From assembly GCA_029245345.1 (NCBI GenBank), contig JAQWPM010000021.1, positions 620,001-684,000 of the forward strand: DNA of 64,000 nucleotides. Reading direction: 5' to 3'. Of this stretch, positions 8,320-27,992 are shown piece by piece; positions within the stretch are counted from its first letter, which is position 1; the number at the start of each line of letters is the position of its first letter. A program made the position numbers and the translations under genes. Under the pieces are notes generated by a model that worked only from the letters and a program-made list of their open reading frames with translations, ran no database searches and was not told the origin of the DNA. Source of the stretch: Longimicrobiales bacterium (GTDB lineage: Bacteria > Gemmatimonadota > Gemmatimonadetes > Longimicrobiales > Gaopeijiaceae).

Positions 8320-11300
8320 TCACCGCCCGCCCCCCGGCCGCCGATACCGCACCGGCGCCTCCGGCTCAGCCATCAACTCAATGCCCTCCGTCTCCAACAA
8401 CCGCAACGCCTCAGCGACAGCCGCCTCCAACTGCGGATCGGCACCAGCAAGCACCTCAGCAGGGTTATTCCGCACCTCGATATCCGGAGCCACGCCCGTG
8501 GCTTCCACGGCCCACTCGCCGTTCACGTCATAGAACCCACCCCTTGGCGCCACAAAAGACCCGCCATCGATCAACGGCGGCGTGTCCCACGTGCCCACTA
8601 ATCCGCCCCAGGTGTTCGTGCCCACCAACGGCCCGACACCCTTGGCCCGGAACAGGTAGGGCATCAAGTCCCCACCCGACCCGGCGCGCCCATTGATGAT
8701 CATGACCTTCGGCCCCCACAGCCCGGCAATAGGCTGCGTGAACGGCCTGTGATCGTCGGCCTTGGAATTGAAGTAGCCGGTAAGCTCCCGGGCCATGATA
8801 TCCACGATGTAGTCGGCGGCTGATCCGCCTCCGTTGTTGCGCTCGTCGATGACGGCGCCCTTCCGGTCCTGCTGCGCGAAGTACATGCGGTTGAAATAGG
8901 TGTAGCCGCCCTGCCCCGTGTTCGGGAGCCAGACGTAGGCGAGCTTGCCACCGCTCAATTCGTCTACCCTGCGCTGGTTACCCGCTACCCAGGCCCAGTT
9001 CCGGAGCTGTCCTTCAGTCGATGCGGGGCGGACCACAACATCCCGCGCGCCGACGCCTTGAGCGTCATCGGCTACGGTGATCGTGATCACCCGTCCCGCG
9101 GTGCCTTCTAGAGCGGCATACGGGTTCTGTCCGGCACCGATCTCTTGCCCGTCGATGCGGAGCAGATAGTCCCCTTCATGCACCCCCATGCCTGGTACAC
9201 TGAGCGGGCCGGTCAGCCCCGGGGTCCAACCCTCACCCGAATAGATACGGCTGATGCGGTACGCCCCATCCGCTTCCTCCAGATCGATGCCGAGCAGGCC
9301 TGTCCTCGGGTTGTCGAGCTCGGGGTAGTCGCCGCCTCGGACGTAGCTGTGCCCGACCGCGATCTCTCCGCTGACCATGTCCAACAGGTGATTAAAATCT
9401 GACCGATGACGCAGGTCCGGCAGCCACGCGCTGTACCAGTCCCACACGTCATCCCACGGGGCGCCGTGCTGGTTGTCCACGTAGAGGAAGTCGCGCATGA
9501 AACGCCAACCGTCGCGGAGCATCTGGCCCCACTCGGCCATCGGTTCGACTTGCACGCGCAGGCCCAGGGTGAGCCGGCCGTCTGATCCGGACGGTTTGCT
9601 GCCCGTGCTCACCACGCTCCAGTTCGGTCCCTGGCGGTAGAGCATCTGCTTCCGATCGTGGGATATCTGTACGGCCTGGAAACCCTCGATGAAGGTCTCG
9701 TCATCGGCATCGTCGAGGCTGTACTTGTAGAGCACCGCGCCCTCGTTCGGGATGACCTCCGATACGAAGACGTGGCCCTCCGGTGCGTCGCGCAGCCCCG
9801 TGTAGTTACGGAGCGGCAGGCCCGGTGCATCTACGATGCGGGTGTTGATCCCCTCAAAGTCGATCGTGACGACAGGTGCGTCCGAGGAGCCCGACTCCGC
9901 AGTGCCTGAAGCCGCGGTGCCTGAAGCCGCGGTGCCTGAAGCCATGTCCGACTCAGGCTCCTCGTCCGACTTGGGCATAAACGGCGATACGCCATCCTCT
10001 TTTAGGATGGCCAAGTAAAGCGCGCGAGTGACGGGATGGTCGAACGACGACATGTCGAGCCATCCCGTACCGAGCCCGACGTCCGTCGACGCGAGGAAAT
10101 AGAGGTACTCACCCGAGGCATCCCACACGGGCGTGATCGCATCCGCCATACCGTCCGTGAGCTGATGGGACTCACCTGACTCGGTGTCATAGATGAAGAT
10201 GGCGCGCAGGTGCGAGTCGAGCCGGCGCGCATAGGCGACCCAGCGAGAGTCCGGCGACCACACTGCCTCTAGCGTGCGCTCGGGGTGCGCGTATCGCTCC
10301 GTGTCCGCGTGTGCGACGTCGCCCGATTCGACGTCCAGGACGAGCAAGCGATAGTCCGTGTCCGTGAACGCGATGTGCGTGCCGTCCGGCGACCACTGCG
10401 GCTGGAAGTAGAAGGTCGGGTTGTCGATGGAGATGCGGCGCTGATTCGTGCCGTCCTGATCTGCGATGACCAGTGCGTATTCGTCCTCAGCATCGTTGAA
10501 CCACGCGATCTGCGATCCGTCCGGCGACCATGCGGCGTGCCGGTCGGCTACGCCCGGAGTTCGAGTCAGATTGCGCCATGAACCTTCACCCGCCGGGACA
10601 CTGAACAGCTCGCCCCGGTACTCGAAGAGTGCGCGCTGGCCGGTGGGCGAGAGGCGGGCGTCACGGAGTTGGGTCGCAGGGGCATCCTCCCAGCGGGTAC
10701 GGGCCCAGTTCTGATCGCCCGACGCGTTGATGTCGAGCTGCCGGGTCGTATTAGTGGCTGGGTCTAGCGCGTGGAGGTAGCCAGCCTGCTCGTAGACCAC
10801 GACGCCGTCCCCCGCTCCGAGCGACTTCACATCGAAGTCGGCGTGGTACGTGTGCTGGGTCTCGGTGCCCGTCGCAGGATCGAACGACCAGACGTTGGCC
10901 GCGTAGTCGCGCTCGGACATGTAGAAGACTTTGCTGTCCAACCACACCGGGGCCAGGTGGCGTTCGCCTTCCCAGGGTGGGGTGAGGCGTTCGTTGGTTT
11001 CAGTCGATACCAGGCTGACCGGCTGCGCTTGCCCGCCGCGGTGGTTGCGCCACTCGGGGTCCCAGAGGCCGAGTTCCTGATAGGCGAACCAGGAGCCGTC
11101 GGCGTTGAGTTCACCTTCGTAGGCTTGGGCGGAGAGTTTGGCTGGGAGGCCGCCTGATGTCGGCACGGAGTACATGTGCCAGAGCTGGGTGGGGTGGGCC
11201 TGTCTGCCGGATTGGAAGAGGACTTCGCCTGATGGCGTCCAGCCTTGGACTACGTCATTTCCCGGGTGCCAGGTGAGGCGTTTGGGTTGACCGCCTGTTG

Positions 11301-11583
11301 CTGGGACAACAAACACATCCGTATTCCCGCCGTATTCGCCAGAGAAAGCAATCCACTGACCGTCTGCCGAGAAGTGCGGGTGGGTCTCGGCGCCTTGGGC
11401 GGTTGTGAGGCGGACTGCTCGGCCTCCCGAGCGGCCGACCGTCCATACGTCGTTGGCGTGGACGAAGGCGATCTGTCCATTGCCCACGTCGGGTTGGCGG
11501 AGGAAGCGGGATTGGGCGGCGGCGGGGGTTGCCGAAAAGGTGGCGACTAAAGCGAGAAGGCCGACGGCATGACGGGCGGACAT
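8320..11583 (-). CDS. Tricorn-like S41 protease with beta-propellers and PDZ
   Basis: A 1087-aa exported peptidase with a signal peptide (cleavage near PAAAQ, residue ~23). The N-terminal ~520 residues are PD40-type beta-propeller blades (FSADGQWIAFSGE, WSPDGSQIAWFNDA, WSPDSRWVAYARRL). A short Ala/Ser/Gly/Thr linker at ~545-565 is followed by C1, PDZ (about 780-860) and C2 S41 domains. The tricorn catalytic residues align almost to the number: His ~745 (AVGHSY), Ser ~969 (GRAGSGGD) and Glu ~1027 (WAVEATG), with the DERNNGGG oxyanion segment between. A complete, probably active periplasmic or cell-surface oligopeptidase. A divergent intergenic region (11584-11932) separates it from the cytochrome operon. 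Confidence 0.92.
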   Translation of the reverse strand: MSARHAVGLLALVATFSATPAAAQSRFLRQPDVGNGQIAFVHANDVWTVGRSGGRAVRLTTAQGAETHPHFSADGQWIAFSGEYGGNTDVFVVPATGGQPKRLTWHPGNDVVQGWTPSGEVLFQSGRQAHPTQLWHMYSVPTSGGLPAKLSAQAYEGELNADGSWFAYQELGLWDPEWRNHRGGQAQPVSLVSTETNERLTPPWEGERHLAPVWLDSKVFYMSERDYAANVWSFDPATGTETQHTYHADFDVKSLGAGDGVVVYEQAGYLHALDPATNTTRQLDINASGDQNWARTRWEDAPATQLRDARLSPTGQRALFEYRGELFSVPAGEGSWRNLTRTPGVADRHAAWSPDGSQIAWFNDAEDEYALVIADQDGTNQRRISIDNPTFYFQPQWSPDGTHIAFTDTDYRLLVLDVESGDVAHADTERYAHPERTLEAVWSPDSRWVAYARRLDSHLRAIFIYDTESGESHQLTDGMADAITPVWDASGEYLYFLASTDVGLGTGWLDMSSFDHPVTRALYLAILKEDGVSPFMPKSDEEPESDMASGTAASGTAASGTAESGSSDAPVVTIDFEGINTRIVDAPGLPLRNYTGLRDAPEGHVFVSEVIPNEGAVLYKYSLDDADDETFIEGFQAVQISHDRKQMLYRQGPNWSVVSTGSKPSGSDGRLTLGLRVQVEPMAEWGQMLRDGWRFMRDFLYVDNQHGAPWDDVWDWYSAWLPDLRHRSDFNHLLDMVSGEIAVGHSYVRGGDYPELDNPRTGLLGIDLEEADGAYRISRIYSGEGWTPGLTGPLSVPGMGVHEGDYLLRIDGQEIGAGQNPYAALEGTAGRVITITVADDAQGVGARDVVVRPASTEGQLRNWAWVAGNQRRVDELSGGKLAYVWLPNTGQGGYTYFNRMYFAQQDRKGAVIDERNNGGGSAADYIVDIMARELTGYFNSKADDHRPFTQPIAGLWGPKVMIINGRAGSGGDLMPYLFRAKGVGPLVGTNTWGGLVGTWDTPPLIDGGSFVAPRGGFYDVNGEWAVEATGVAPDIEVRNNPAEVLAGADPQLEAAVAEALRLLETEGIELMAEPEAPVRYRRPGGGR
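9901..9945. repeat. Three 15-bp tandem repeats inside the protease gene
   Basis: Three in-frame copies of a unit close to GGTGCCTGAAGCCGC (minus-strand coding ASGTA) lie in the linker between the propeller and catalytic domains of the tricorn-like protease. Copy-number change would lengthen or shorten the flexible linker by five residues without breaking the frame. Confidence 0.85.
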
Positions 11584-11932: not shown

Positions 11933-13786
11933 ATGAAGCTCATCCCATCGTCCCTCCTCACCCTGCTCGGAGTGGTCTTCGTCATCGGAGTGCCTCTGGC
12001 GTCGAGGGCCGACGTCCGGGTTCCGCAGGAGGCCCCGCCCGCCCAGGAGGCGGACACCGTCGTCGCGATGCACGAGCGCGCCATGCTCTACCCGTCCGCG
12101 ATGCAATGCGCCAGCTGCCATCCGGATCAGGCCCGTCAGTGGTCGGTGTCGCCCCATGCCTACACCATGGTCAGCCCGATCTTCCAGGCCATGGCGGGTT
12201 TCGTGGGACGGCACACGCAAGGGACGAACGGAGACTTCTGCCTGCGCTGCCACTCGCCGGCAGGCATGGCCATCGGCGAGTCCATCTTCATGGGCAATGC
12301 TCAGCGGCAGCAGGTCTCCCGAGAGGGAATCACCTGCATCGGCTGTCACCGGGTCAACCGCAACTACGGCAGGATCAGTGGTCGCCAGGCGGTTCTGCCG
12401 GGCGACGTGTACGAGACCGTCTACGGGCCGTCCGACGGGAGCGAATTGGCCCGGGTCAAGGAGTTGGCAGAGTTCCAACTTTCGGGTGGCAGGGGGGAGC
12501 GGGGCATGGCGGTGCACCAGACCTCCGAGCAGTTCTTCGAGATGAACACGCCCGCGTTCTGCGGAACCTGCCACGAGTTCCTGAATCACCCGGGGCTGCG
12601 TAACCAGGAGACCCTGGCCGAGTATCGCCACTCTCCTTCGGCGAAGGCCGGAGTCACGTGCCAGGACTGCCACATGGGAACGGAACCCGGCGCCTACACG
12701 GGTTCGGACACGACCAACTACGGCTGGGGGCCGGCCGCCCTCGTCAACGGAAGACCGACCGGGTCCAGGCGTCTTTCCAACCATATGATGGTCGGGCCCG
12801 ACCACTCCCTGATACATCCGGGGATTTTCCCGCTCAACCCTCGAGCCCTAGAGATGGCCGAGGTGGACGAGTGGGCGCAGTTCGACTGGAAGGCGGGCTG
12901 GGGCACCGACGAATTCGAGGACGGCCCGGGCGAAGACTTCGAGTTCCCCGAGGCCTGGGACAACTACGATGACCGGCTCGATGCGCGCGAGGTCATCGAC
13001 GACAATCTCTCTCTCATCAACGAATACATGGGTCAACGCCTGACCCTCCTGCGTAACGGATACTCCATCGGTGAGATCCGGATGGAGCGGGCCTCGAGGC
13101 GCCGGGGCATCAAGCTCGAGGTCCAGGTCGACAACGTCACCGACGGCCACAGCGTTCCCACGGGCTTCAGCATCAGGCCGGTCTATCTGCGTGTGACGGT
13201 GGCCAACGCCCAGGGCGATACGGTCTACAAGTCTGGCGACCTCGACCCCAACGGCGACTTCCGGGACCGGAACTCGGTGTACGTGCGCAACGGCGTGCTT
13301 CCACTGGACGGCGACCTCTTCAACCTCCAGCCGAAGTTCATCGTTCGGAACATGTTCGGAGGAGAGCGTGAAGAGGTAGTGCCGGTGAACCTCTCTCCGA
13401 GCCCGCTACCCTTCCTTCGACCCCAGCCGCGGTCATACATGCTCATGGGGCGTCCACTGGGCGTCCGGATCCAACGCCACTCCATCCGGCCGGGTGCTCA
13501 CCGCTCCGCGGACTACTCCGTGGACTCCGACCTGCTCACCGATGACGGGCCGTACGAGGTCAACGTCAAGCTCGTGGCGCCGATGATTCCCGTGTCCCTC
13601 ATCGGGACCATCAAGGAGATGGGATTCGAGTTCGGCATGACCGCTCGGCAGCTCGCCGATCGTGTGGTGTCAGGGCACACGGTCATCTGGGAATACGAAG
13701 GGTCTCTGGACCTGGCGGCCGGACCTGATGCCATCGAGTGGCGTGTCGTGGAAGCCGTGCCGTTCCGGTTCGAGGACCTGAGGTGA
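11933..13786 (+). CDS. Secreted pentaheme cytochrome c with C-terminal sheet domain
   Basis: This 617-aa protein has a signal peptide (about residues 1-26) and five CxxCH haem sites at about residues 59 (CASCH), 103 (CLRCH), 134 (CIGCH), 210 (CGTCH) and 243 (CQDCH), typical of the cytochrome c554/multihaem superfamily. Residues ~350-617 contain no haem motif and form a beta-rich domain with a GHSVPTGF segment seen in other multihaem cytochromes. It opens a seven-gene operon; its stop overlaps the start of the barrel gene (GTGA), implying translational coupling. Likely location is the periplasm or outer surface, passing electrons with the adjacent barrel. No signature identifies it as a specific reductase. 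Confidence 0.85.
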   Translation: MKLIPSSLLTLLGVVFVIGVPLASRADVRVPQEAPPAQEADTVVAMHERAMLYPSAMQCASCHPDQARQWSVSPHAYTMVSPIFQAMAGFVGRHTQGTNGDFCLRCHSPAGMAIGESIFMGNAQRQQVSREGITCIGCHRVNRNYGRISGRQAVLPGDVYETVYGPSDGSELARVKELAEFQLSGGRGERGMAVHQTSEQFFEMNTPAFCGTCHEFLNHPGLRNQETLAEYRHSPSAKAGVTCQDCHMGTEPGAYTGSDTTNYGWGPAALVNGRPTGSRRLSNHMMVGPDHSLIHPGIFPLNPRALEMAEVDEWAQFDWKAGWGTDEFEDGPGEDFEFPEAWDNYDDRLDAREVIDDNLSLINEYMGQRLTLLRNGYSIGEIRMERASRRRGIKLEVQVDNVTDGHSVPTGFSIRPVYLRVTVANAQGDTVYKSGDLDPNGDFRDRNSVYVRNGVLPLDGDLFNLQPKFIVRNMFGGEREEVVPVNLSPSPLPFLRPQPRSYMLMGRPLGVRIQRHSIRPGAHRSADYSVDSDLLTDDGPYEVNVKLVAPMIPVSLIGTIKEMGFEFGMTARQLADRVVSGHTVIWEYEGSLDLAAGPDAIEWRVVEAVPFRFEDLR

Positions 13787-15186
13787 GTGCCGTGACCAGG
13801 CTCGTTAGCAACACGGGTGTGCTCCTCCTCAGCGTTGCCCTGCTCTTCGGTGCACCGACTCCGGGCCTCTCCCAGGACCCATACCGGTTCCCGGACGACG
13901 TGGTGCCCCCACAGCTCGCAGGCTTTCCCGAGCGTCCTCCCATGCTCTTGGAACTCGGCGACAAATTCTACGATGTCGGTGAGCTCCCGTACGGAGTGAG
14001 CCCCTGGAAAGGCACGTACTGGCAGCCGGCGCTGTGGGTGTACGGCAACCTCCTGGCGGCCGGCCAGGGACAGACGCTGGGCGGCTCCACCCAGATCGGT
14101 ACGGCACAGGTGCGGGACCGGCTCGATCTGTTCATGAACCTGCGGCTCTCTGGCACCGAGCGGGTCTTCGTGGGGTTCCGGCCCCTGGACTCCGGCGGAA
14201 TGACCGGCTTCGATCTCGTCCGCAATGGTGAGACAGTCCAAGGGGACCGCTTCGTGAACGACGGCTTGAGCATGAAGCCGGTGATCTACTTCGTGGAGGG
14301 CGATATCGCCGAGCTCTTCCAGTTCCTCGACTACGAGGACATGCGGCCGTACGACATCGGGTTCAGCGTGGGCCGGCAGAACCTCTACTTCCAGGAAGGG
14401 TTGCTGGTCAACGACATCATGGATGTCGTGGGGCTCGCCTTCAACGGCTTGTCCCTGGGAGGAATGTCCAACCTCCGGATCTCCGCGGTGTGGGGCTTCG
14501 GCGACGTGAACCATGGTGGCACCAAGGATGCCGACCTCGCCGGCCTCTTCATGGAAGCCGACTGGAACGGAGCCCTCGTGGATCTGGACATCGCCTACGT
14601 GGACGGCGGAGATGCGACGGGCTCGGGTCTCGTGGCCGGCTTCAGCACGGTCCAGCAGATGGGGTTCTGGAATACCGCCTTCCGCATCGCGGCATCCACA
14701 GCTCTCGACGAAGGAGCCGCCGGTAGCCCGGGGACCTCCGACGGTGTGATCCTGTTCAACGAGCTGTCTCGAAAGGACGGCGCTTCGGACAACCTGATCT
14801 ACTTCAACCATTTCTTCGCTTACGATACGTTCTCGCCCGCCTCCACTCAGCCGCCGGGGCCTCTCGGTCGCATCGGGCTGCTCTTCGGGGGATCCCCCCT
14901 GGGTGCATATGTGCCGGCTCTGGGTGCTCCAGTAGCCTCCAACGAGGTCGGAGCCGCGTTAGGGTACCAGGTCATACAGCCGGCCGAACGGCGTCAATTC
15001 GTCTTCGAGGCCGCAGCGCGACGGGGGCTGTTCAACGGCAACAGCAGCAGCTCTCTGGGGGCCGGGGTCAGAGTCCAGCAGGCCTTCAGCAATCGATACG
15101 TGCTCCAGAGCGACCTGTTCGTATCCCACCGGAACACGGACGGCGCCCACATTGGAGGGCGGTTTGGAATCCTCGTCAAGATGTAG
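13783..15186 (+). CDS. Outer-membrane beta-barrel of the redox operon
   Basis: From GTG 13783 (overlapping the cytochrome stop) the protein is 467 aa with a signal peptide ending near GLSQ (about residue 31). The body has alternating beta-strand patterns rich in aromatic and glycine residues (FMNLRLSGTERVFVGFRPL, LRISAVWGFGDVNHGG) and ends in a final strand GGRFGILVKM. I recognise no named family. Because it is sandwiched between a secreted pentahaem cytochrome and a reductase in one operon, a porin that carries a cytochrome through the outer membrane (functionally like MtrB or PioB) is a reasonable inference, not a demonstrated homology. An alternative is a simple substrate porin. Confidence 0.6.
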   Translation: MSAVTRLVSNTGVLLLSVALLFGAPTPGLSQDPYRFPDDVVPPQLAGFPERPPMLLELGDKFYDVGELPYGVSPWKGTYWQPALWVYGNLLAAGQGQTLGGSTQIGTAQVRDRLDLFMNLRLSGTERVFVGFRPLDSGGMTGFDLVRNGETVQGDRFVNDGLSMKPVIYFVEGDIAELFQFLDYEDMRPYDIGFSVGRQNLYFQEGLLVNDIMDVVGLAFNGLSLGGMSNLRISAVWGFGDVNHGGTKDADLAGLFMEADWNGALVDLDIAYVDGGDATGSGLVAGFSTVQQMGFWNTAFRIAASTALDEGAAGSPGTSDGVILFNELSRKDGASDNLIYFNHFFAYDTFSPASTQPPGPLGRIGLLFGGSPLGAYVPALGAPVASNEVGAALGYQVIQPAERRQFVFEAAARRGLFNGNSSSSLGAGVRVQQAFSNRYVLQSDLFVSHRNTDGAHIGGRFGILVKM

Positions 15187-15204
15187 CCTGGCCGCCGCCA
15201 CTTC

Positions 15205-16494
15205 ATGAACATCTGGACAGCCCTGACTGCGCCGCAGCGACTGGCGCTTCTCCTGGCAGCCGCAAGTCTCCTCGCGATGGCTCGTGGGGTCGCTCGCTTG
15301 GTGTTGAGCGCCGCCCGGCGTCGTAGCGTCCTTCAACGGACGGGTGACGAGCACCGGAAGAGGGTTGCGACGGCGATGGCCGGTTACGAGCCCTCGGCCT
15401 CCGAGACCGGGCTCGGATGGGAGGGATTCCGGCGGCTCACAGTGAGCGGGAAGGAGTGGGAAACCGCGTCCCAGGACGTCTGTTCCTTCTACCTCGAGCC
15501 GGTGGACGGCAAGACCCTGCCCGACTTCCTTCCCGGGCAGTTCCTGACGTTTCGAATGGGCTTTCTGGACTCGGCCGGGCAGGAGAGGCACGTCGTGCGT
15601 TGCTACTCGCTGTCCTGGGGAGGGGCTCGGAAACCGTACAGGATCTCCGTCCGCCGCATCAACGGCGCGCCGGACAAGAGTGAAACGCCCGGAGTGGTGT
15701 CCACCCACCTCCACGACCGGATTCAGGTGGGCGCCGTCCTGAACGTGAAGGCTCCAGCGGGAGGCTTCTATCTGGATCCTCAAAAGGACGGGGGGCCGGT
15801 AGTACTCATCAGCGCCGGGATCGGCATCACGCCTCTTTTCAGCATGGCCGACTCCCTCATCGAATCGGGAAGTACCCGGGAGATCTGGTTCTTCGTGGGG
15901 ATGCGGTCAGCCCACTCCTTCCCGATGAGGGAGCAGATTCTGGCCTGGGCGAAGGACCGTTCCGGATTCAATCTCGTGATCTTTCACAGCCAGCCGTCCG
16001 CTGACGAGCGCCTTGGCGTCGATTTCGACGTGCGCGGCCATGTCACGGCTGAGGCGGTCCGGGAACGTTTGGGCCAGCGGGAGGCCGACTTCTACGTCTG
16101 TGGGCCGGGCACCATGATGAACTCCATGGTCGGTGGTCTCGAGGCGCTGGGCATCGCCTCGGACCGGATCCACTTCGAGGCGTTTGGGCCCGCCTCGGTA
16201 CGCAGGGCCCCCAAGGACGTGGACGACCGGATTGCCAATCCATACTCTGTCCGATTCGCGCGGTCTGGCGTATCCGTGCCTTGGGACAGCACTTATGACA
16301 ATCTTCTGAGCTTCGCCGAGGCACAGGGAGTTCCCATTGACGGGGGGTGCAGGAGTGGCAACTGTGGTACCTGCGCCACAGCGGTCGACGAAGGTACAGT
16401 GGAGTATGTCGCTCGGGCCGCGGCCAAAACCGAGTCGGGGACGTGCCTGACCTGCGTCGCGGTCCCGTCATCAGCGCTCGTCCTCGACGCTTGA
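15205..16494 (+). CDS. Membrane-anchored flavin reductase with C-terminal 2Fe-2S domain
   Basis: A 429-aa protein with an N-terminal hydrophobic anchor (residues ~8-30), then a ferredoxin-reductase fold: FAD-binding RCYSLS (~132-137), an NAD(P)-binding SAGIGITPLFSM segment, and the CGPGTMM motif near the end of the nucleotide domain. Residues ~345-429 form a plant-type ferredoxin with CRSGNCGTC plus a distal Cys (TCLTC). This order matches hybrid-cluster-protein or oxygenase reductases. It should move electrons between NAD(P)H and one-electron carriers; the anchor places it at the cytoplasmic membrane. It lies 18 bp after the barrel gene, within the redox operon, and could feed or drain the cytochrome chain. 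Confidence 0.85.
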   Translation: MNIWTALTAPQRLALLLAAASLLAMARGVARLVLSAARRRSVLQRTGDEHRKRVATAMAGYEPSASETGLGWEGFRRLTVSGKEWETASQDVCSFYLEPVDGKTLPDFLPGQFLTFRMGFLDSAGQERHVVRCYSLSWGGARKPYRISVRRINGAPDKSETPGVVSTHLHDRIQVGAVLNVKAPAGGFYLDPQKDGGPVVLISAGIGITPLFSMADSLIESGSTREIWFFVGMRSAHSFPMREQILAWAKDRSGFNLVIFHSQPSADERLGVDFDVRGHVTAEAVRERLGQREADFYVCGPGTMMNSMVGGLEALGIASDRIHFEAFGPASVRRAPKDVDDRIANPYSVRFARSGVSVPWDSTYDNLLSFAEAQGVPIDGGCRSGNCGTCATAVDEGTVEYVARAAAKTESGTCLTCVAVPSSALVLDA

Positions 16495-16530
16495 CTTCGT
16501 CAATCACTCCAACCAAAGACGGTGAATCCG

Positions 16531-17589
16531 ATGCTGACCTCCCGTACCCGTGCGACCACCGCCGTGATGGGATTGTGTCTGCTCCTCACGGGGGCGGTGA
16601 TGTACACGGCCCAGGAAACCGACGGACTGCGGTACGACCCCGCCAAGATCGTCGGAACCGAGCGGTGCTCGGAGTGCCACGAGCCCGCCGTCGACCAGTG
16701 GGAAACCACGAGCCACTACAAGACCTTCAACGGTGCCGACGACGTTGAGGCTATGCATCGGAGGGACGCCGCCGCTGAGATCCTGGACAACCTGGGTGAG
16801 CGAAGCGCGAAGCGGGGTGTGTGCGCGAGCTGCCACTACACGATGCAGGCCGAAGAGGCCGGCGGTCGGCCCCGGGCCAACTACGGGGTTTCCTGCGAGT
16901 CGTGCCACGGCGCGGCCGCGGATTGGATCGAAGAGCACGGCGTTTACGGCGAGGATACATCGGGCGCCAAGTGGACGCGGGAAACCGAGCCCGACGATCA
17001 CCGTGAAGCGCGCCTGACGACTGCCGAGGCCGGAGGCATGATCCGCACGGACAACCCATACGCGCTCATCCAGAACTGCTTTCAGTGCCACACGGTCCCC
17101 AACGAGCTTCTGGTGAACACGGGCGGGCACCAGGCGGGCTCCGACTTCAACATCCTCGAATGGCTGGCCAGGGAAGTCCGCCACAACTACCTGTACTCGG
17201 ATGGCGCCGAAAACCGGGCCGCACCTCGGGACATGGACGCGGTAGCGCGGTCCCGTGTCCTGCTGGTTCTCGGCGAGATGATCGACGTGGAGTACGGGCT
17301 CCGAGGGTTGGCGTCGGCGACCACCGACGGGCCATTCGCCGAAGGCCTCGTGGCCCGTATCGGGGCCGGAGTCGAGGCTCTCGAAGCCATCCGTGCCGCG
17401 GAACCAGCCATGGCTGCGACCCTCGACACGGTTCTCGCCGCGGTGGCGGGCGCCGATCTCGGGCCGAACAACCGGCCGGCGCTGCTCGCCGCGGCCGAGA
17501 CGGTGGGATCGGCTGCACGCTCGTTCTCCGAGAGCGAGGACGGAGCCGGCCTGGGTGGATTGGATGCGCTGATGCCTGGAGTCCCATGA
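16531..17589 (+). CDS. Tetraheme cytochrome c554-like protein
   Basis: The ATG at 16531 is preferred because GGTGA lies five bases ahead; an in-frame GTG at 16522 is possible. The protein (352 aa) has an N-terminal hydrophobic segment (residues ~8-25) acting as signal or anchor, then four CxxCH sites: CSECH (~46), CASCH (~98), CESCH (~121) and CFQCH (~183). The spacing and the SHYKTF/GVSCESCHG contexts resemble the cytochrome c554 family that accepts electrons from hydroxylamine oxidoreductase or acts in other periplasmic chains. The C-terminal ~130 residues are alpha-helical and haem-free. Its stop overlaps the next gene's ATG (ATGA). Confidence 0.83.
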   Translation: MLTSRTRATTAVMGLCLLLTGAVMYTAQETDGLRYDPAKIVGTERCSECHEPAVDQWETTSHYKTFNGADDVEAMHRRDAAAEILDNLGERSAKRGVCASCHYTMQAEEAGGRPRANYGVSCESCHGAAADWIEEHGVYGEDTSGAKWTRETEPDDHREARLTTAEAGGMIRTDNPYALIQNCFQCHTVPNELLVNTGGHQAGSDFNILEWLAREVRHNYLYSDGAENRAAPRDMDAVARSRVLLVLGEMIDVEYGLRGLASATTDGPFAEGLVARIGAGVEALEAIRAAEPAMAATLDTVLAAVAGADLGPNNRPALLAAAETVGSAARSFSESEDGAGLGGLDALMPGVP

Positions 17590-19316
17590 CCGGACCACCT
17601 GCTCCCCGAAGGCTGGCCCGCTGGGATCATCCATTCGATACCGGGATGACCGAGGGCGACGTCGACCGTCTCCTGGCGCTCCCGCTGTTCGCCGACATGG
17701 AGGCGGATCGCTTCCCGAGGAACATCCCTCTCCGGGGGATCCTCCGGAACGACGCCCGAAAGGTTCGATACCAACCAGGTGAGATCGTGATCAGGGAGGG
17801 GGATTACGGCACGTCCGCCTTCGTCATCTTGGGTGGTGGAGTGCGCGTGATCCTCAAGAGCCAGACCCGGTTTGCGCCGGGCCGGACCGAGCGTCGGCGC
17901 GTGAGCTTCCTCAAGTCCCTGGTGAGCCCGTTCCTGGGGCGCCCGACGCCTGAAGCCCGGGACTTCCGTCCGGCGTCGGAACGCACGGGGCTCATGACGC
18001 GGGGCGTCGGGACCGAGACGAGAGTCTACGTGCCTGATGTGACGGGTCTCATCGAGCGATCCGAGACGGTTCCCTTGGCGGAGGCGGGGGATCTCTTCGG
18101 GGAGATGGCGGCCCTGGGACGCACCGATCGGTCCGCCACGGTCGTTGCGGAGACCGAGCTCGAGCTGCTTGAGATCAGGCATCCCGGGCTCAGAGACCTC
18201 CGGAAGTACGACGCGCGCTTCGGCGCACAGGTCGACAGTTTGTACCGGGACCGGTCGCTGGTCACGCGATTGAAAGCCACCCCCATCTTCTCTCATCTCG
18301 CCGACGAAGAGCTGGCCGTCGTGGCCAAAGCGGCGGAGTGGCACTCTCATGGGCGCTTCGACTGGGATGTGGATCTCAAAAAGCGGGGGGCGCTGGACTG
18401 GGACGAGCGCCTGAGTGACGAGCCCATCGTCCTACTTCAGGGTGATTACGTGAACGGCGTGACCGTCATCGCCAACGGCTTCGGTCGTGTCTCACGCTCG
18501 TTCGGCAATTCGGAGCACACCCTGGAGTATCTGGGCAGAGGGCGGGTCTTCGGCCTGGAGGAGTTCACCCACCATTGGCGTACCGGCGAGCCGGAGCCCC
18601 ACGGCACGACCCTGCGTGCGTTGGGATACCTGGAGACGCTCTTCGTGCCCAGCGATCTGGTTGAGAAGTATGTGCTGGGGCCAGACAGGAGCCGCCCACG
18701 GGCGAAGCCGTCGCTAATCCCCTCGGCGTCAAGCGCTGAGAAGGGTCGGGGGCGCGGCAGGTCCCGCCTTCCGGTGCTGCCCAACGTAGTTCTGGAGGGC
18801 TTGGTGGATGAACGGGTCCACATCGGCGGGGCTGCCATGGTCATCGACATGGATCGCTGCACCCGGTGCGACGACTGCGTACAAGCGTGCTCCGACGCGC
18901 ATGACGGCAATCCTCGTTTCCTGCGCAGTGGCCCCAGGATCGGCCCGCTCATGGTTGCCAGCGCGTGCATGCACTGCGTCGATCCCGTGTGCATGATCGG
19001 ATGTCCCACGGCCGCCATCTCGCGGGACAAGGCGACGGGAAACATCCTCATCGACGACAACACCTGTGTCGGCTGTGGCACCTGCGCCAGCAGTTGCCCC
19101 TGGGACAACATCCGCATGGTGGAGATCCGTGATACCGCGGGTGAGGTGATTCGTGACCTCGAAATGCACGAACCCATCCGAAAGGCCACCAAGTGTGACC
19201 TGTGTATCGATGAGTGGGGCGGCCCCGCGTGCCAGCGGGCGTGCCCTCACGATGCGCTGGTGCGCCTCGACCTCAGTCAGGGCCCAGAGAGGCTTGCCCA
19301 GTGGCTGGATCGCTGA
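17586..19316 (+). CDS. Cyclic-nucleotide-binding domains fused to four-cluster ferredoxin
   Basis: A 576-aa cytosolic-looking protein with no signal peptide. Residues ~45-215 form a CRP-type cyclic-nucleotide-binding domain interrupted by a long insert; its phosphate-binding cassette is recognisable (FGEMAALGRTDRSATV, with the Glu and Arg present). A second, more degenerate domain spans ~235-390 and lacks a clear cassette. Residues ~420-565 carry DmsB/NrfC-type iron-sulfur motifs for four [4Fe-4S] clusters: CTRCDDCVQAC, CMHCVDPVCMIGC, CVGCGTCASSC and CDLCIDEWGGPACQRAC. It thus looks like an electron-transfer subunit gated by cAMP/cGMP or another ligand. It overlaps both neighbours, linking the c554-like gene to the membrane cytochrome gene. 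Confidence 0.85.
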   Translation: MTGPPAPRRLARWDHPFDTGMTEGDVDRLLALPLFADMEADRFPRNIPLRGILRNDARKVRYQPGEIVIREGDYGTSAFVILGGGVRVILKSQTRFAPGRTERRRVSFLKSLVSPFLGRPTPEARDFRPASERTGLMTRGVGTETRVYVPDVTGLIERSETVPLAEAGDLFGEMAALGRTDRSATVVAETELELLEIRHPGLRDLRKYDARFGAQVDSLYRDRSLVTRLKATPIFSHLADEELAVVAKAAEWHSHGRFDWDVDLKKRGALDWDERLSDEPIVLLQGDYVNGVTVIANGFGRVSRSFGNSEHTLEYLGRGRVFGLEEFTHHWRTGEPEPHGTTLRALGYLETLFVPSDLVEKYVLGPDRSRPRAKPSLIPSASSAEKGRGRGRSRLPVLPNVVLEGLVDERVHIGGAAMVIDMDRCTRCDDCVQACSDAHDGNPRFLRSGPRIGPLMVASACMHCVDPVCMIGCPTAAISRDKATGNILIDDNTCVGCGTCASSCPWDNIRMVEIRDTAGEVIRDLEMHEPIRKATKCDLCIDEWGGPACQRACPHDALVRLDLSQGPERLAQWLDR

Positions 19317-20125
19317 CCGGCCGCTGGAGCAGACGCGCGCTCACGGTGGCGGCCGTAGGGGTGACGTTCTACGGCGTGCTCCGCTACCAGGACGCGTGGG
19401 CAGGGAGATGGGCGATACCCGCCGGAGAGGTGACCGGCTGGCTGCTCCTGGCGTTGGTTGGCGCCCTGACCTTCTTGAACGTGCGGAAACGCTTCACGCG
19501 CATACCGCTGCTCCCGGCCACTCTCTGGGTCGACGTGCATGTGTTCCTGGGGTTGCTCGCCGGCCTGTTCCTCCTGATCCACGTCGGATACTCGTGGCCG
19601 AGGGCTGCGCTGAACTGGGGGTACCTCCTGCTCTTCGCTTCGGTGTGGGCGAGTGGCCTGGGCGGGTTGTGGCTGTCCCGCTGGGTGCCCAGGCGTCTTC
19701 GGGAACGCGGGGAGGAAGTGATCTACGAGCGCATTCCAGCCCACCGGGCGCGCCTTTGCCAGCGGGTCCTCGAGATCGTGGACCAGGATCTCGCACAGGA
19801 CGAGATGCCCACCATCGCCGCGTTCGCCGTGGAAACGCTGCTCCCGTTCATGGAGCGTCCCCAGAATCGGTTTGCGCACCTCTTCCGTGCTCGCCGCCAT
19901 CTGCAGGACCGCCTGGGCGAACTCGATGAGATGGAGCGCTACGTGAGCGCGCGGGAGCGGCACATCAAGACGGAGCTGGCCGCGCTACTCACGACGAAGG
20001 ACGACCTCGACTATAGCGAGGCTCACCAGGCGCTGCTGAAATACTGGCTCTTTGTGCATATCCCCCTCACGTACGCGCTCCTCCTCATCGCGCCGGCGCA
20101 CATCGCGTGGGCGCTCCTCTTCTGA
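19301..20125 (+). CDS. Membrane cytochrome b-like protein of the redox operon
   Basis: From GTG 19301, which overlaps the preceding ferredoxin fusion, the protein is 274 aa with about five transmembrane helices: four in residues ~15-130 and one at the C-terminus. Histidines inside helices (DVHVFLG, LIHVGY, FVHIPLTY, PAHIAW) are placed as expected for haem b ligands. A ~110-residue charged helical loop separates helix 4 from helix 5. I infer a quinone-interacting cytochrome b that exchanges electrons with the FeS fusion on one side and the periplasmic cytochromes on the other. No named family is certain; NarI/ferric-reductase-like four-helix proteins are the nearest picture. Confidence 0.65.
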   Translation: MAGSLTGRWSRRALTVAAVGVTFYGVLRYQDAWAGRWAIPAGEVTGWLLLALVGALTFLNVRKRFTRIPLLPATLWVDVHVFLGLLAGLFLLIHVGYSWPRAALNWGYLLLFASVWASGLGGLWLSRWVPRRLRERGEEVIYERIPAHRARLCQRVLEIVDQDLAQDEMPTIAAFAVETLLPFMERPQNRFAHLFRARRHLQDRLGELDEMERYVSARERHIKTELAALLTTKDDLDYSEAHQALLKYWLFVHIPLTYALLLIAPAHIAWALLF

Positions 20126-20131
20126 TCGCCC

Positions 20132-22093
20132 ATGCCGACCCCTTCTGAGCTCTGGGCGTCCGCGCGGCAGGCGTACGAAAGGCCCACCCAGGATTGGGCG
20201 TGCGGGCGCGAGACGCCGTGCGCCGCGGGCCCGAACAGGAAAAGGGGCTGCGGCGGAACCGCTCGATGCGTGCCCTCCACCGAGGCCGACGTGCACCTGT
20301 GTGCCCGGGCGCAAGAGGATGGTGGGGCCTGCGAGATGGGTCCCGGGACCGGGGGGAGCTGCGGCTCTCCACTGCCGCCGTGCATTCCCGTTCCGAGCCT
20401 TCGTATCCGCCGGCGCCGAACGTCCCTGGCCGTGGGTGGCCTCGCGTTCGCCTTCACGGTGCTGGTGTGGTATTCGTTGCCAGCGCAGCCCCTCGCCGCA
20501 CGGCTGTTCAGCCCGGGCCCATTGGCCCGGGCCCATGCGGACATCGAGTCGGACTGTGCGTCCTGTCATACGGCACTGTCCGACTCCTCGTACGTGGGTG
20601 ATCTCGCGTGGGATGCGTTTCGCTCGAGTGGGAACAAAGGCGGGCCCACGGAGTGCGGATCCTGCCACGAGGTGCCCGAGGCGTTGACGTTCCTCCCTCA
20701 CACCCTGGCCGTGGCGTCGAGTGGCTCGGGCTCCCTCAGCGCTCATCTGGCACCCGGAGGGGCGGACCCCAGGAGTTGTGCCTCCTGCCACGTCGAGCAC
20801 GGCGGCGCCGGTGCGGAGCTGCGTCCCGATCCGGCAGAGCTGTGTGCGTCGTGCCACCTGGGAGAGCCAGAGTCGTTCAAGGCTGCCCACCCCTCCCTCG
20901 AGCCCTTCGCGATTCTCGAGGATGAGCTGCGTTGGGCCTTCGATCACACGTCGCACTCGGTTGAGTATTACCCCCGTGAGGAAGTGGCCTTCGATTGCGT
21001 CGTCTGCCACAATGCCGGGCAGGTGCTGACCATGGCGGTGAACACCTTCGAGGCCTCCTGCACGAGCTGCCATAATCACGTGTCCGAGGTGAACTCGGTC
21101 CGGCTCCCGGTCTTTCAGCTACCGGGACTGGACTACGAGACCCTCGAAGAGGAGGGCCTGAGCATGGGGAGCTGGCCGGAGGATGCAGGCATCGATCTCG
21201 AGGCCGAGCTGACGCCTGCCACGCGCCTCCTGCTGGATGCCGAGGGCGTGCGCGCCGCCGACCGCCTGGAGGCACAAGGCGCACTCCTCTTCGATCTCCT
21301 CGATGCCGACGTGGAGCTCGCAGACGTGGAGACGCTCGTGTGGTCCCTGAAAGAGGCACTGGCCGACGTGCGAGAGCGGGAAGGAGCCGCGCTGCGGAGC
21401 AGGTTGGGCCGGTGGCCCGGCGTCGAGCTGACGCGTGATCTGAACATCACGCTACAGCAGTGGGCCGAGGCGCTGAATCGGGCGTCCGGCGACTGGTTTC
21501 CCGATCTCGAGGCAGAGGTGGCCCGCCACGACGCCGGCGAGAGCGTCGAGGTCCGCGTCGTGAGCGACTACGATTTCACCGCCAAGGAAGTGGGCGCCTG
21601 GACCGTGGACACACGGACCTTCTCAGTGCACTACTCGGTGGAGCGTCATGCTGACGCCCTCGCCCGGGCACTCTTCGAGGCGGCCGCGGGACGCGCCTCC
21701 ATGGCCGGCCTTATGACCGAGCTCCGGCATGACGCGGCGGCCGGATCCTGTTTGAAGTGCCATGGAAACGGGCTCGCCGCATCTGCCGACTGGCTCGAGA
21801 CGGGTGGAGCCCCGTCTGAAGGCCCGGAATCCAGCACGTCGGTGGCGGGGTGGTTCGACCACGGCCCCCACCTCTCCGTGACCACCTGCGCGGAGTGCCA
21901 TGCGGAGACCGGGGCGACGCCATCCTTCGACACGGTGCCACTGTCCCTATGCTCGGCGTGCCACGCTACCGAGCCCGTGGACCTCGAGGAGCCGGCGACC
22001 ATGACGTGCTCGGCGTGCCACGTGTACCACGATGCCATGTCCACCAAGGCGATCGGGACGGATTCGGCGACCGCTCCGGAGTCGGGCGGGTAG
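20132..22093 (+). CDS. Membrane-anchored decaheme cytochrome with Cys-rich N-terminus
   Basis: This 653-aa protein has three parts. Residues ~20-90 form a cysteine-rich module with a two-fold repeat: each half has C-x-R, then C-x2-GP-x6-C, then C-x-P (CAAGPNRKRGC...CVP and CEMGPGTGGSC...CIP). A transmembrane helix follows at ~103-118. The periplasmic part has ten CxxCH sites, six in the first third (CASCH, CGSCH, CASCH, CASCH, CVVCH, CTSCH) and four near the end (CLKCH, CAECH, CSACH, CSACH), with a helical haem-free stretch between. The topology puts the Cys module in the cytoplasm next to the FeS fusion protein. It closes the redox operon. Starting later would delete the Cys module, but its repeat argues that it is real. 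Confidence 0.82.
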   Translation: MPTPSELWASARQAYERPTQDWACGRETPCAAGPNRKRGCGGTARCVPSTEADVHLCARAQEDGGACEMGPGTGGSCGSPLPPCIPVPSLRIRRRRTSLAVGGLAFAFTVLVWYSLPAQPLAARLFSPGPLARAHADIESDCASCHTALSDSSYVGDLAWDAFRSSGNKGGPTECGSCHEVPEALTFLPHTLAVASSGSGSLSAHLAPGGADPRSCASCHVEHGGAGAELRPDPAELCASCHLGEPESFKAAHPSLEPFAILEDELRWAFDHTSHSVEYYPREEVAFDCVVCHNAGQVLTMAVNTFEASCTSCHNHVSEVNSVRLPVFQLPGLDYETLEEEGLSMGSWPEDAGIDLEAELTPATRLLLDAEGVRAADRLEAQGALLFDLLDADVELADVETLVWSLKEALADVREREGAALRSRLGRWPGVELTRDLNITLQQWAEALNRASGDWFPDLEAEVARHDAGESVEVRVVSDYDFTAKEVGAWTVDTRTFSVHYSVERHADALARALFEAAAGRASMAGLMTELRHDAAAGSCLKCHGNGLAASADWLETGGAPSEGPESSTSVAGWFDHGPHLSVTTCAECHAETGATPSFDTVPLSLCSACHATEPVDLEEPATMTCSACHVYHDAMSTKAIGTDSATAPESGG

Positions 22094-24877: not shown

Positions 24878-27800
24878 TCATCTCCCGAAGTCCCTTACCA
24901 CCATCTGAGGCAAACCCGCCCTCGTGAACTCGTCGTTCAGACGGGTCAAGTCTTCGGAGATCAGGTCATGTAGCACCCGCATGTGCCCGTCGAGTTCGGC
25001 CGCCAGCTCCTCGAAGACGTCACGGTACGCAGCCGTTGGCGCTGCGTCTCCCCATTCGAGCCGACTGCGCAGGCCAGTAAGGCGATCGTTCAGTCGGATC
25101 GGGAAGGCGATCTTGTCCTTGGGGCTCTGATTCCGGACTTGGTAGAGCTGGGCCTCGACCCGGCCGATGGCGTCCACGAATCGCTCTGCTGACGCCTTCA
25201 GCTGCTGGTCCTCGCTTCCGGCGACACTGGCCTGGATCTGTCCCCTCAGGTCGCGAATCAACAGAACGCTCCCGTTCGCCTGGCTCTCCGCGTCCCGAAT
25301 CCTCGATGCGAGCCGGAACTGTCCGACGAGGTCGGCGTCGGTTACCCCGGTCAGCCGGGGATCGCGGTGCACACCGAAGGAGGCGACATGTACGTCGTCG
25401 CCCACTGTGAGACGGGCCTGATACCGACCCGGCGGGGACCACGGGCCTCGGGCCGGATTGCCGCCCTCGAGCACGATGCCGTCGAAGGTCACCGCGCCCC
25501 GATGGCGGAGATTCCATGTCTCTCGATGAGTCCCCTCGCCGCGCCTGCCCTCGAAGAGCGTGCGCACGAGTTCTCCCTCCGCATCGAACACGTCGAGGCG
25601 AACCTGTTGGTCCGAACCGGTCACGTAATAGTCGATGACCGCCGGAACCGACCGCCGGATCGCGTCAGCCGGGTTGAAGAGATGGGTGTCGGCTGTCTCG
25701 AGACCGGTGTCGATCTGACGGAGTGTCTCGATGTCGTCCAGGACCCAGAACGACCGACCGTGCGTGGAAATCACCAGGTCGCGTTGCTGAACCGTGAGCC
25801 CTGTGATGGGAGTGTCGGGCATGTCATAGGAGAGATCGGCCCAATGGGCACCGTCGTCGAACGATACGTACACACCGTGTTCGGTACCGGCGTACAGCAA
25901 GCCCTTTCGGTTCGGGTCCTCGCGGAGGACTCGCACGAAGTCACCCGGCGCGATCCCGTCGACAATCTTCGTCCAGCTGGTGCCGTAGTCGTTCGTCCTC
26001 CACGCATAAGGCGACCGATCGTCCATCTCGTAACGAATGCCGGCCACGTAGGCCGTCGAGCCGTCGTGTGGTGAAACGTCGATGCTCATCACCCGCGTGT
26101 GTGCAGGCATGTCCGGGGGCGTGACGTCGCTCCAACTCTCACCCGAATCCCGCGTAATGTGCACCAGGCCGTCGTCCGATCCGGTCCAGATCGTAGCCTG
26201 GTCATGGGGAGACGGCGCGAGCGCGTATAGCGTCGCATAGATCTCGGGTCCGTCCTGGTCCTTCACGACAGGCCCGCCGGAGTCGCCCATGGTCTCCGGC
26301 TCAGCACGCGTGAGGTCGGGGCTGATCCTCAGCCAGGACTCTCCTTCGTCCGTCGACTTCCACAGGTGCTGGGAGCCGACATACAGCGCTGCGGGCTCGG
26401 CTAGCGACACTGCGATCGGATACGTCCAGTTCCAGCGTTCGGGCATGTCTCGCGCCGGCTCGCCCATGACGATGCGAGGGTGCGGCTGAATGTCCCGAAC
26501 AAGACCCGTGTTGCGGTCGTAGCGGGTGAGCGCATTTGTCGCGCCGGCATAGAATACGCTTGGATCGGTTGGTCTTGGCGCAACGTATCCACTCTCGCCT
26601 CCTCCCACCGAATACATCCACTCCGTGCTCACGCCGCGTGGGTTTTGAAGATGCCCCTCCTCGGACGAAACGCAGACGGTGGAGTTGTCCTGCTGGGCAC
26701 CACACGCGTGGTAGGGGAAGTCCGTCGTGGTCGCGAGGCGGTAGATCTGTGCCGTGGGATACTTCATTCCCGTCCAGGTGCGCCCGCCGTTGACGGACAC
26801 AACACCACCACCGTCATTGCCATTGATCATGCGGAGGGGGTTCCCTGGATCGATCCAGATGTCGTGGTGATCGGCGTGCGTCTCGCGAACACTCTCCAGC
26901 GTACGGCCGGCATCGGTCGACTTCATGAGCCGGAAATTGAGGATGTAGATCGTGTTCCGGTCGACCGGGTCGGCCTGGATCCGCTGGAAGTAGAACGCCC
27001 GCTGCCAGATGTCTCGGTGTGCGTTCACGAGGGTCCACGAAGAGCCTCCGTCGTCCGACATGTAGAGGCCTCCGGCCTCAGCCTCCACGTTCGCCCAGAT
27101 CCTCTGGGAATCTGCGCCGGACACGGTGATCGCTATTTTGCCCAGAACACCGGCCGGAGATCCCACACTACGCGCCGGGAAACCCGGATTGTCGGTCAGT
27201 TCGGACCAGGTATCGCCGCCATCCGTCGTCTTGAAGATTCCAGAACCTTCCCCGCCGCTCCACAGTTGCCAGGGCTTCCGGTGCACCTCCCAGAGCGTCG
27301 CATAAAGGACGTCAGGGTCGTGCGGATCCATGACGAGATCGACCGCGCCAGTGCGGTCGTTCCGGAACAGAACCTTGTCCCAGGTCCGGCCGCCGTCGGT
27401 GGTCCGGAAGACGCCGCGGTCGGCACTCGGGCCGAACGGATGTCCGAGAGCAGCCACGAAAGCCCGCTCCGGGTCGGTCGGGTGCACCCTGATCCGGCCG
27501 ATCGCTTGGGTGTTCTCCAGACCGACGTGACGCCAGTTCCTCCCGCCATCGTCGGAGCGATACACACCGTCGCCTTGAAGCACATTCGCTCTCAGCTGCA
27601 CCTCGCCCATCCCGATGTAGACGACGTCCGGGTTCGATTCTGCAACTGTCACCGCCCCGACAGAGCCACTCCTTATCTGACCGTCCGTCACCGGGGACCA
27701 CGAGGTGCCACCGTCGGTGGTCTTGAAGAGCCCACCACCCGTCGCGCCGAAGTAGTACTCGAACGGTCGATCGGAGTGTCCGGCTACGGCGATCGAGCGC

Positions 27801-27976
27801 CCGCCACGGTCCGGTCCAATCGATCGCCACTCGAGCGGGGGCATCAGTGCGGCCTGCCCGGGGGCGGACTGCGCCGCTGCTGGCGCCGCGAGAAGTGCCA
27901 GCAGCGCCACCGGCGCCGCTATTAGCGCCGCGAGGACACGGAAAAGAACCGAGATGATCAGACTTTGACGACTCAT
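24878..27976 (-). CDS. VPS10/sortilin-type beta-propeller exoprotein 2
   Basis: A 1032-aa secreted Asp-box propeller protein. The start at ATG 27976 is chosen because GGGGAGAG lies just upstream and a signal peptide follows (hydrophobic residues ~5-35, ending PAAAQS); the longer open frame upstream reads through the neighbour. Blades include KTTDGGTSW, RSDDGGRNW, RTTDGGRTW, KTTDGGDTW, MSDDGGSSW and ITRDSGESW, and CGAQQDNSTVC is shared nearly verbatim with protein 3 (CGAQQDNTSKC). The C-terminus has an Ig-like region and a helical tail ending VVRDFGR. It lies 16 bp downstream of an alpha/beta hydrolase gene and is probably co-transcribed with it. Confidence 0.87.
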   Translation of the reverse strand: MSRQSLIISVLFRVLAALIAAPVALLALLAAPAAAQSAPGQAALMPPLEWRSIGPDRGGRSIAVAGHSDRPFEYYFGATGGGLFKTTDGGTSWSPVTDGQIRSGSVGAVTVAESNPDVVYIGMGEVQLRANVLQGDGVYRSDDGGRNWRHVGLENTQAIGRIRVHPTDPERAFVAALGHPFGPSADRGVFRTTDGGRTWDKVLFRNDRTGAVDLVMDPHDPDVLYATLWEVHRKPWQLWSGGEGSGIFKTTDGGDTWSELTDNPGFPARSVGSPAGVLGKIAITVSGADSQRIWANVEAEAGGLYMSDDGGSSWTLVNAHRDIWQRAFYFQRIQADPVDRNTIYILNFRLMKSTDAGRTLESVRETHADHHDIWIDPGNPLRMINGNDGGGVVSVNGGRTWTGMKYPTAQIYRLATTTDFPYHACGAQQDNSTVCVSSEEGHLQNPRGVSTEWMYSVGGGESGYVAPRPTDPSVFYAGATNALTRYDRNTGLVRDIQPHPRIVMGEPARDMPERWNWTYPIAVSLAEPAALYVGSQHLWKSTDEGESWLRISPDLTRAEPETMGDSGGPVVKDQDGPEIYATLYALAPSPHDQATIWTGSDDGLVHITRDSGESWSDVTPPDMPAHTRVMSIDVSPHDGSTAYVAGIRYEMDDRSPYAWRTNDYGTSWTKIVDGIAPGDFVRVLREDPNRKGLLYAGTEHGVYVSFDDGAHWADLSYDMPDTPITGLTVQQRDLVISTHGRSFWVLDDIETLRQIDTGLETADTHLFNPADAIRRSVPAVIDYYVTGSDQQVRLDVFDAEGELVRTLFEGRRGEGTHRETWNLRHRGAVTFDGIVLEGGNPARGPWSPPGRYQARLTVGDDVHVASFGVHRDPRLTGVTDADLVGQFRLASRIRDAESQANGSVLLIRDLRGQIQASVAGSEDQQLKASAERFVDAIGRVEAQLYQVRNQSPKDKIAFPIRLNDRLTGLRSRLEWGDAAPTAAYRDVFEELAAELDGHMRVLHDLISEDLTRLNDEFTRAGLPQMVVRDFGR

Positions 27977-27992
27977 CGTCTCTCCCCTTGGT

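Follow-up and report, generated by a model that had tools for sequence, protein, structure and literature searches.

A seven-gene redox set with a fixed core and exchangeable ends in a Longimicrobiales bacterium and other bacterial phyla

What could a bacterium do with a porin-like barrel, three multihaem cytochromes and an iron–sulphur (Fe-S) protein fused to cyclic nucleoside monophosphate (cNMP) domains, all encoded side by side with no catalytic subunit that can be recognised? This question is raised by a gene cluster of a Longimicrobiales bacterium (GCA_029245345.1), which lies within the 64,000-nt stretch analysed here (the window; JAQWPM010000021.1, positions 620,001–684,000, forward strand). 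A first-pass annotation had described seven overlapping or nearly overlapping redox genes with 19 CxxCH motifs in three proteins, and our analysis agrees: the seven plus-strand open reading frames (ORFs; Table 1) are tightly packed, with intergenic gaps, in order, of +5, +18, +27, −4, −16 and +6 bp; the pentahaem, tetrahaem and decahaem cytochromes carry 5, 4 and 10 motifs (19 in total); and FAD/NAD/Fer2 reductase, Cytochrome_C554, cNMP_binding, Fer4 and Cytochrome_C7 families of Pfam are matched above their curated cut-offs. The barrel and the cytochrome b, which have no Pfam family above cut-off, were identified via alignments, the barrel additionally via a structure model. Scanning the full 64-kb window in all six frames turned up no further stop-to-stop frame with two or more CxxCH motifs.

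The seven-gene set appears to be an undescribed, mobile and modular chain, with a fixed core and exchangeable NAD(P)H and outer ends. Its anatomy and conservation are solid, and our literature search found no paper that describes the cluster, in keeping with the annotation's suspicion of an undescribed module. With moderate confidence, we read it as a transportable chain that would carry cytoplasmic NAD(P)H electrons to the periplasm and outer membrane and would be opened or closed by a cyclic nucleotide. If this is true, a widespread trans-envelope electron path would be added to mostly uncultured bacteria, one whose barrel is unlike MtrB and which current screens for extracellular electron transfer overlook for that reason. 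At least one of these mostly uncultured carriers, Oceanospirillum sediminis D5 (locus L041), is in culture, which makes the claim testable. The module would also allow direct control of electron flow by a nucleotide to be put to the test, and would offer a system that is modular by nature, in which the NAD(P)H entry and the outer part can be exchanged around a fixed core.

Conservation of the gene set and exchange of its NAD(P)H entry

Related loci were searched for with an alignment of the cNMP/Fe-S protein, in one genome per species, and the best 80 of at least 565 confirmed places were analysed; about 84 loci were mapped with profiles of the seven families, and the locus counts given here, drawn from a similarity-ranked sample, are lower bounds. 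All seven families are present together in 25 of the ~84 loci (window included), which belong to Planctomycetota, SAR324, Verrucomicrobiota, Elusimicrobiota, Pseudomonadota and the window's own phylum, Gemmatimonadota. The exact gene order is found in eleven loci, namely the window and ten others, from Planctomycetota (L010), SAR324 (L011), Rhodospirillales (L013), Pedosphaera (L014), Gammaproteobacteria (L024, L044, L053 and L072), O. sediminis D5 (L041, with two genes fused) and one unassigned source (L016). A permuted order (tetrahaem, Fe-S, b, decahaem, pentahaem, barrel, reductase) occurs in L022, L025, L032, L038, L046, L051 and L060, and the gene set is partly inverted in further full-set loci. 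The gene order thus recurs across phyla, and no characterised example of it was found. Of 84 loci, 73 have the complete core trio (cNMP/Fe-S protein, cytochrome b, decahaem cytochrome), and those without it are mostly short contigs or fusions. Genes beyond the seven, compared in ten loci, differ from locus to locus and are unrelated, except for cyclases and phosphodiesterases in some lineages.

The core and the outer part are also associated at the level of whole genomes. Of 298 genomes sampled from the window's phylum, three encode the cNMP/Fe-S protein (E ≤ 1e−20), and just these three also encode the pentahaem cytochrome (E ≤ 1e−40; hypergeometric p = 2e−7). Among 294 sampled Planctomycetota genomes, 37 have the former and 45 the latter, and both are found in 29 versus 5.7 expected (Fisher p = 1.5e−21, kinship ignored); another 16 have the pentahaem protein without the cNMP/Fe-S protein, so the pentahaem part also lives apart from the module. 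A tree built from the cNMP/Fe-S protein joins the window to L013 of the Rhodospirillales and L041 of Oceanospirillum (Shimodaira–Hasegawa-like approximate likelihood ratio test, SH-aLRT, 95) and places the two other genomes of its phylum far off, beside Acidobacteriota and Nitrospirota. Separate acquisition by transfer would be the simplest, though not a proven, explanation of this placement. A plasmid search with the pentahaem protein gave partial matches only.

The window's reductase resembles Hmp/BenC, with a hydrophobic segment at residues 15–33, the flavin adenine dinucleotide (FAD) motif RxYS (RCYS), the NAD(P) motif GxGxxP (GIGITP), CGP, and a plant-type [2Fe-2S] C-x4-C-x2-C-xn-C motif. 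This NAD(P)H module is exchanged in three ways. The FAD/[2Fe-2S] reductase is the version of close relatives; in Sphingobium, a Pyr_redox flavoprotein is fused ahead of the cNMP/Fe-S protein, with comparably long ORFs in L079 and L082–L089; and a NuoE/NuoF-like fusion adjoins the module in L073, with related ORFs in L069, L074, L080 and L085. Of the quinone- or NAD(P)H-linked route that the annotation had proposed, the NAD(P)H-linked, trans-envelope part is supported, and no evidence of a quinone site was obtained. The set of seven itself needs a qualification, as the FAD/[2Fe-2S] gene is not universal and is missing from the clusters of relatives with an octahaem cytochrome (L007, L008, L071 and L078).

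Proposed electron path between the NAD(P)H entry and the periplasm

We infer a path in which electrons would pass from NAD(P)H to the FAD and then the [2Fe-2S] cluster of the membrane-anchored reductase, from there to the four [4Fe-4S] clusters of the cNMP-domain protein, and on to two haems b that span the inner membrane, with His80/His253 on the cytoplasmic and His94/His267 on the periplasmic side. The haems b would then reduce the ten haems of the anchored decahaem protein and, through these, the tetrahaem shuttle, which would hand electrons to the pentahaem cytochrome held at the OprD-type porin. The acceptor would most likely be a small compound (an oxyanion, an Fe(III) chelate or a shuttle), either admitted by the porin or meeting the pentahaem protein at the outer membrane.

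The inner part of this path is reflected in residues and in gene fusions. The Fe-S protein has 16 conserved cysteines in the four-cluster [4Fe-4S] ferredoxin arrangement of NrfC/DmsB/HydN-type subunits; unlike them, it is fused to two CRP-like domains, and its partner is a bis-haem cytochrome b rather than NrfD or a molybdoenzyme. Across 38 homologues, the cytochrome b has exactly four invariant histidines, paired on two helices with a spacing of 14 residues (80/94 and 253/267); as judged from the alignment, this is how a pair of haems stacked across the membrane is ligated. In L041 and L078, a single ORF encodes both the cNMP/Fe-S protein and the cytochrome b, an arrangement that would set the Fe-S clusters next to the haems b, and this fusion and that of Pyr_redox with the cNMP/Fe-S protein point to neighbours in the electron path.

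Beyond the CxxCH histidines, the decahaem protein has ten invariant histidines, the tetrahaem protein four, and the pentahaem protein four plus one that is kept in 90% of sequences. Judging by this conservation, every c-haem can be bis-His and six-coordinate. A catalytic haem, sought as one without a second conserved histidine, was not found across the c-haems, and the potential six-coordination of all of them directly supports the annotation's view that no terminal enzyme is recognisable in the set. The annotation's link, through c554, to hydroxylamine oxidoreductase (HAO) proved weak: the tetrahaem protein does match the c554 family (PF13435, 46.2 bits, cut-off 20.8), but it carries the four further histidines, no HAO or NrfA gene was seen in the conserved loci, and matches of the window's cytochromes to NrfA and NrfH are far below cut-offs. 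The counterpart of the tetrahaem protein in L007 (6262–8451), L008 (3145–5286), L071 and L078 is a tandem octahaem cytochrome, whose first half it matches.

The membrane decahaem cytochrome turned out to carry an additional cytoplasmic, Cys-rich N-terminus, which consists of two four-Cys repeats (Cys 24, 30, 40, 46 and 57, 67, 77, 84), is kept in most close relatives (e.g., L010, L011 and L014) and has no Pfam match; it may possibly be a new metal-binding domain. An FHA domain replaces this part in the flavoprotein-fused relatives L004 (13838–14300), L082 and L083, an arrangement that suggests docking of a phosphoprotein onto the electron-transfer subunit.

The same carriers could in principle be run inwards, from a periplasmic or extracellular donor through haem b and the Fe-S clusters to NAD(P)+ or ferredoxin. 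Every step is reversible in principle, the cNMP/Fe-S protein offers four [4Fe-4S] sites, and [4Fe-4S] clusters and c3/c7-type haems are often low-potential. However, the conserved set contains no donor-oxidising enzyme, and modules of the Hmp/BenC-like, Pyr_redox and NuoEF-like kinds usually oxidise NAD(P)H. Inward flow thus seems improbable to us, and we keep to an outward path from NAD(P)H.

The outer end and its relation to known conduits

The AlphaFold2 (AF2) model of the pentahaem cytochrome (predicted local distance difference test, pLDDT, 81.6) has an Ig-like domain behind its five-haem domain and aligns over most of its length with the c552 of Thermochromatium tepidum (5ze8) at Z 19.6 and root-mean-square deviation (rmsd) 3.6 over 351 residues with 21% identity, which places it in the PHC family. 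This family includes ExtKL and GSU2801 and is related to the archaeal nanowire AvECN, according to a study of cable bacteria (PMC11976967). The window protein matches NF040886 below its cut-off (E 3.9e−11), and a putative lipobox is present in only 3 of 29 homologues. It shares the five-haem and Ig-like domains with c552 and the cable-bacteria PHC; the genes of the latter lie away from any porin gene (PMC11976967), whereas here a porin gene always follows: in all 32 loci that have the two genes, the barrel gene lies directly downstream of the pentahaem gene and in the same orientation. Barrel and cytochromes are conserved together.

The barrel model (pLDDT 84.5) has 18–19 strands and an OprD-type fold, with structural matches to OccK7, BenF and AlgE at Z 25–28 (AlgE ~26; OccK7 27.7, with rmsd 2.8 over 322 residues). 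None of 31 barrel homologues matches any Pfam family, the OprD porin family included, and the barrel has no match in NCBIfam.

These results bear on the annotation's analogy with Mtr/Pio conduits, in which the pentahaem cytochrome would sit inside the barrel as a sealed wire and pass electrons to minerals or electrodes outside. The unbroken adjacency of the two genes argues for such a wire, as does the finding that Geobacter ExtHIJKL (pentahaem plus barrel), as the sole remaining conduit, supports partial Fe(III)/Mn(IV) oxide reduction (PMC6148476). Like MtrCAB and PioAB, the set combines a barrel with multihaem cytochromes across the envelope; unlike them, its barrel belongs to another fold class and family, it is without a surface decahaem lipoprotein, and an NAD(P)H/Fe-S entry takes the place of a quinol dehydrogenase. 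MtrB has 26 strands, and the OprD/AlgE-type barrel modelled here is narrower. MtrB_PioB (PF11854) is matched by none of the 31 barrel homologues and is absent from the window's genome and from seven other carrier genomes, and there is no outer-surface multihaem lipoprotein or other outer-surface cytochrome among the seven conserved families. MtrB is not among the structural matches listed for the barrel, which by itself excludes nothing. With a barrel that, modelled by itself, is OprD/AlgE-like, with no Pfam match among its homologues and with no MtrB_PioB member in the genome, an Mtr-style sealed wire appears unlikely; the structure model of the barrel and the searches for its family led us to drop the analogy, and with it this conduit as the leading idea.

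A nearer comparison is the extHIJKLMNOPQS operon of Geobacter sulfurreducens, with the porin ExtI, ExtKL, ExtN, the Fe-S protein ExtO, the cytochrome b ExtP and ExtS; its parts list runs parallel (porin, pentahaem, decahaem, Fe-S, cytochrome b and tetrahaem proteins), and loss of ExtI impairs selenite and tellurite reduction (PMC5877670). The pentahaem proteins of both sets belong to one fold family, and in sister loci of the core an ExtM-like cytochrome takes their place. There are also differences: the window's pentahaem protein scores 42 bits against the ExtKL cut-off of 250, although no NCBIfam model fits it better and 29 of 30 homologues match this one; the decahaem protein and the cytochrome b match no model of that operon, and among 25 decahaem homologues a single one matches ExtN, weakly; cNMP domains are fused to the four [4Fe-4S] sites of the Fe-S protein, which an NAD(P)H reductase accompanies; and no rhodanese (ExtH) was noted, by eye and clustering, among conserved or immediate neighbours. 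The barrel and ExtI are both porin-like, as compared by description only. Membership in the ext operon, through ExtN or its cytochrome b, was unsupported by the family-model searches, and by analogy the set probably works like that operon without being a member of it. An in-frame TGA for selenocysteine, as in ExtKL, was considered for the pentahaem match of genome G263, where the two TGA reported sit at the far end of a reading frame that stays open up to a stop codon of its own.

The outer part, like the NAD(P)H entry, is exchanged. The pentahaem protein is found in 33 loci and an ExtM-like cytochrome in 15 others, the two never together (p = 2.7e−4). The alternative cytochrome has ~1,300 residues, ~10 haems and LVIVD repeats, its best NCBIfam match is ExtM, and the pentahaem–barrel pair is absent beside it (L004, L026, L033, L061, L069, L070, L074, L076, L079, L081, L082, L084, L086, L087 and L089). 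In Sphingobium herbicidovorans, one version of the core lies on plasmid pMSHV (L092, L004; 959 kb, typed as conjugative), where it is accompanied by an LVIVD cytochrome of the ExtM-like type, a CHASE2 cyclase, an HbpS-like protein and genes for two-partner secretion. Verrucomicrobial clusters in which a porin gene likewise adjoins multihaem genes were proposed for extracellular electron transfer by He et al. (2017; PMC5615132), and these may overlap with the octahaem relatives.

Probable nucleotide control and other features of the window

The annotation's cNMP fusion could be refined to a pair of CRP-like domains; the canonical binding motif is present in the first and not in the second. The phosphate-binding cassette of the first domain, FGE..AL.R..R[ST]AT, is intact in 52 of 53 close homologues, the window among them. 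Class III cyclases lie near the module in L011, L015, L019, L035, L039, L043, L056, L065, L069, L082 and the Sphingobium cluster, several of them with FHA or CHASE2 domains, and class-II cNMP phosphodiesterases are close by in L035, L039 and L043. Seven of the cyclase-bearing loci belong to planctomycete genomes of 4–8 Mb with only 1–4 cyclases overall, and a cyclase would fall within 10 kb by chance in ~1% of such cyclase-poor genomes; L011 is uninformative in this respect because its genome has 86 cyclases. As most genomes in this comparison were selected for having a cyclase nearby, and several are mutually related, the proximity is strong evidence for nucleotide control, though no clean test. 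The chain is thus probably switched by a cyclic nucleotide, as the annotation had supposed in calling it gated by a nucleotide ligand. More tentatively, and with rather less confidence than in the chain as a whole, we propose that a locally made and degraded second messenger might bind the Fe-S relay directly and open or close the flow of NAD(P)H electrons through the envelope, as a post-translational switch used in many phyla with interchangeable input and output modules.

Signalling parts of this kind could instead belong to a device for envelope redox homeostasis or stress, rather than respiration, which would keep periplasmic haems, metals or thiols reduced under a stress-nucleotide switch. 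The cNMP and FHA domains, the nearby cyclases and the lack of a terminal enzyme would all fit such a device; on the other side, 19 haems and a dedicated porin would be costly for housekeeping, and no thiol- or metal-handling protein is conserved alongside the set among the neighbours in ten loci. We give this explanation little credence, and a nucleotide-switched chain from NAD(P)H to the outer membrane remains our preferred reading. Several observations count against the latter: the FAD/[2Fe-2S] gene, the barrel or the pentahaem protein is missing in some relatives; no cyclase adjoins the module in the window, in whose genome two lie elsewhere; and the octahaem relatives L005 and L006 have lost the canonical binding arginine, which suggests that gating may be lineage-specific.

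Table 1 Genes and subfeatures of the seven-gene set (window coordinates)
Feature	Coordinates	Strand	Basis
Secreted pentahaem c-type cytochrome of the PHC family, Ig-like domain at the C-terminus	11933..13786	+	5 CxxCH; AF2 model
Outer-membrane beta-barrel, OprD/AlgE-like porin fold, signal peptide	13792..15186	+	AF2 model; structural matches
NAD(P)H-dependent FAD/plant-type [2Fe-2S] reductase, N-terminal membrane helix	15205..16494	+	Pfam; motifs
Tetrahaem c554-like periplasmic cytochrome	16522..17589	+	PF13435; 4 CxxCH and 4 further invariant His
Cytoplasmic fusion of two CRP-like cyclic-nucleotide domains and four [4Fe-4S] sites	17586..19316	+	PF00027, Fer4 families
Phosphate-binding cassette of first cNMP domain, residues 166–190, EAGDLFGEMAALGRTDRSATVVAET	18081..18155	+	Homologue alignment
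Transmembrane bis-haem cytochrome b	19301..20125	+	Alignment of 38 homologues; hydropathy
Membrane-anchored decahaem c3/c7-type cytochrome	20132..22093	+	10 CxxCH; Cytochrome_C7
Cytoplasmic Cys-rich N-terminus of decahaem protein, preceding the membrane helix	20132..20422	+	Cys positions

Start codons were picked by overlap and homology (barrel, GTG 13792; cNMP/Fe-S protein, ATG 17586; cytochrome b, GTG 19301). No RNA families were found within the 64-kb window, and promoter or terminator consensus searches gave no signal exceeding chance. Divergently upstream of the operon lies a gene (8320–11583) for a 1,087-residue protein that by eye resembles tricorn/PD40-S41 proteases. Three further genes around the module region (2751–6110, 24878–28327 and 29998–33234) encode proteins of ~1,100 residues with VPS10/sortilin-like repeats, which are alike by eye and apparently form an expanded family.

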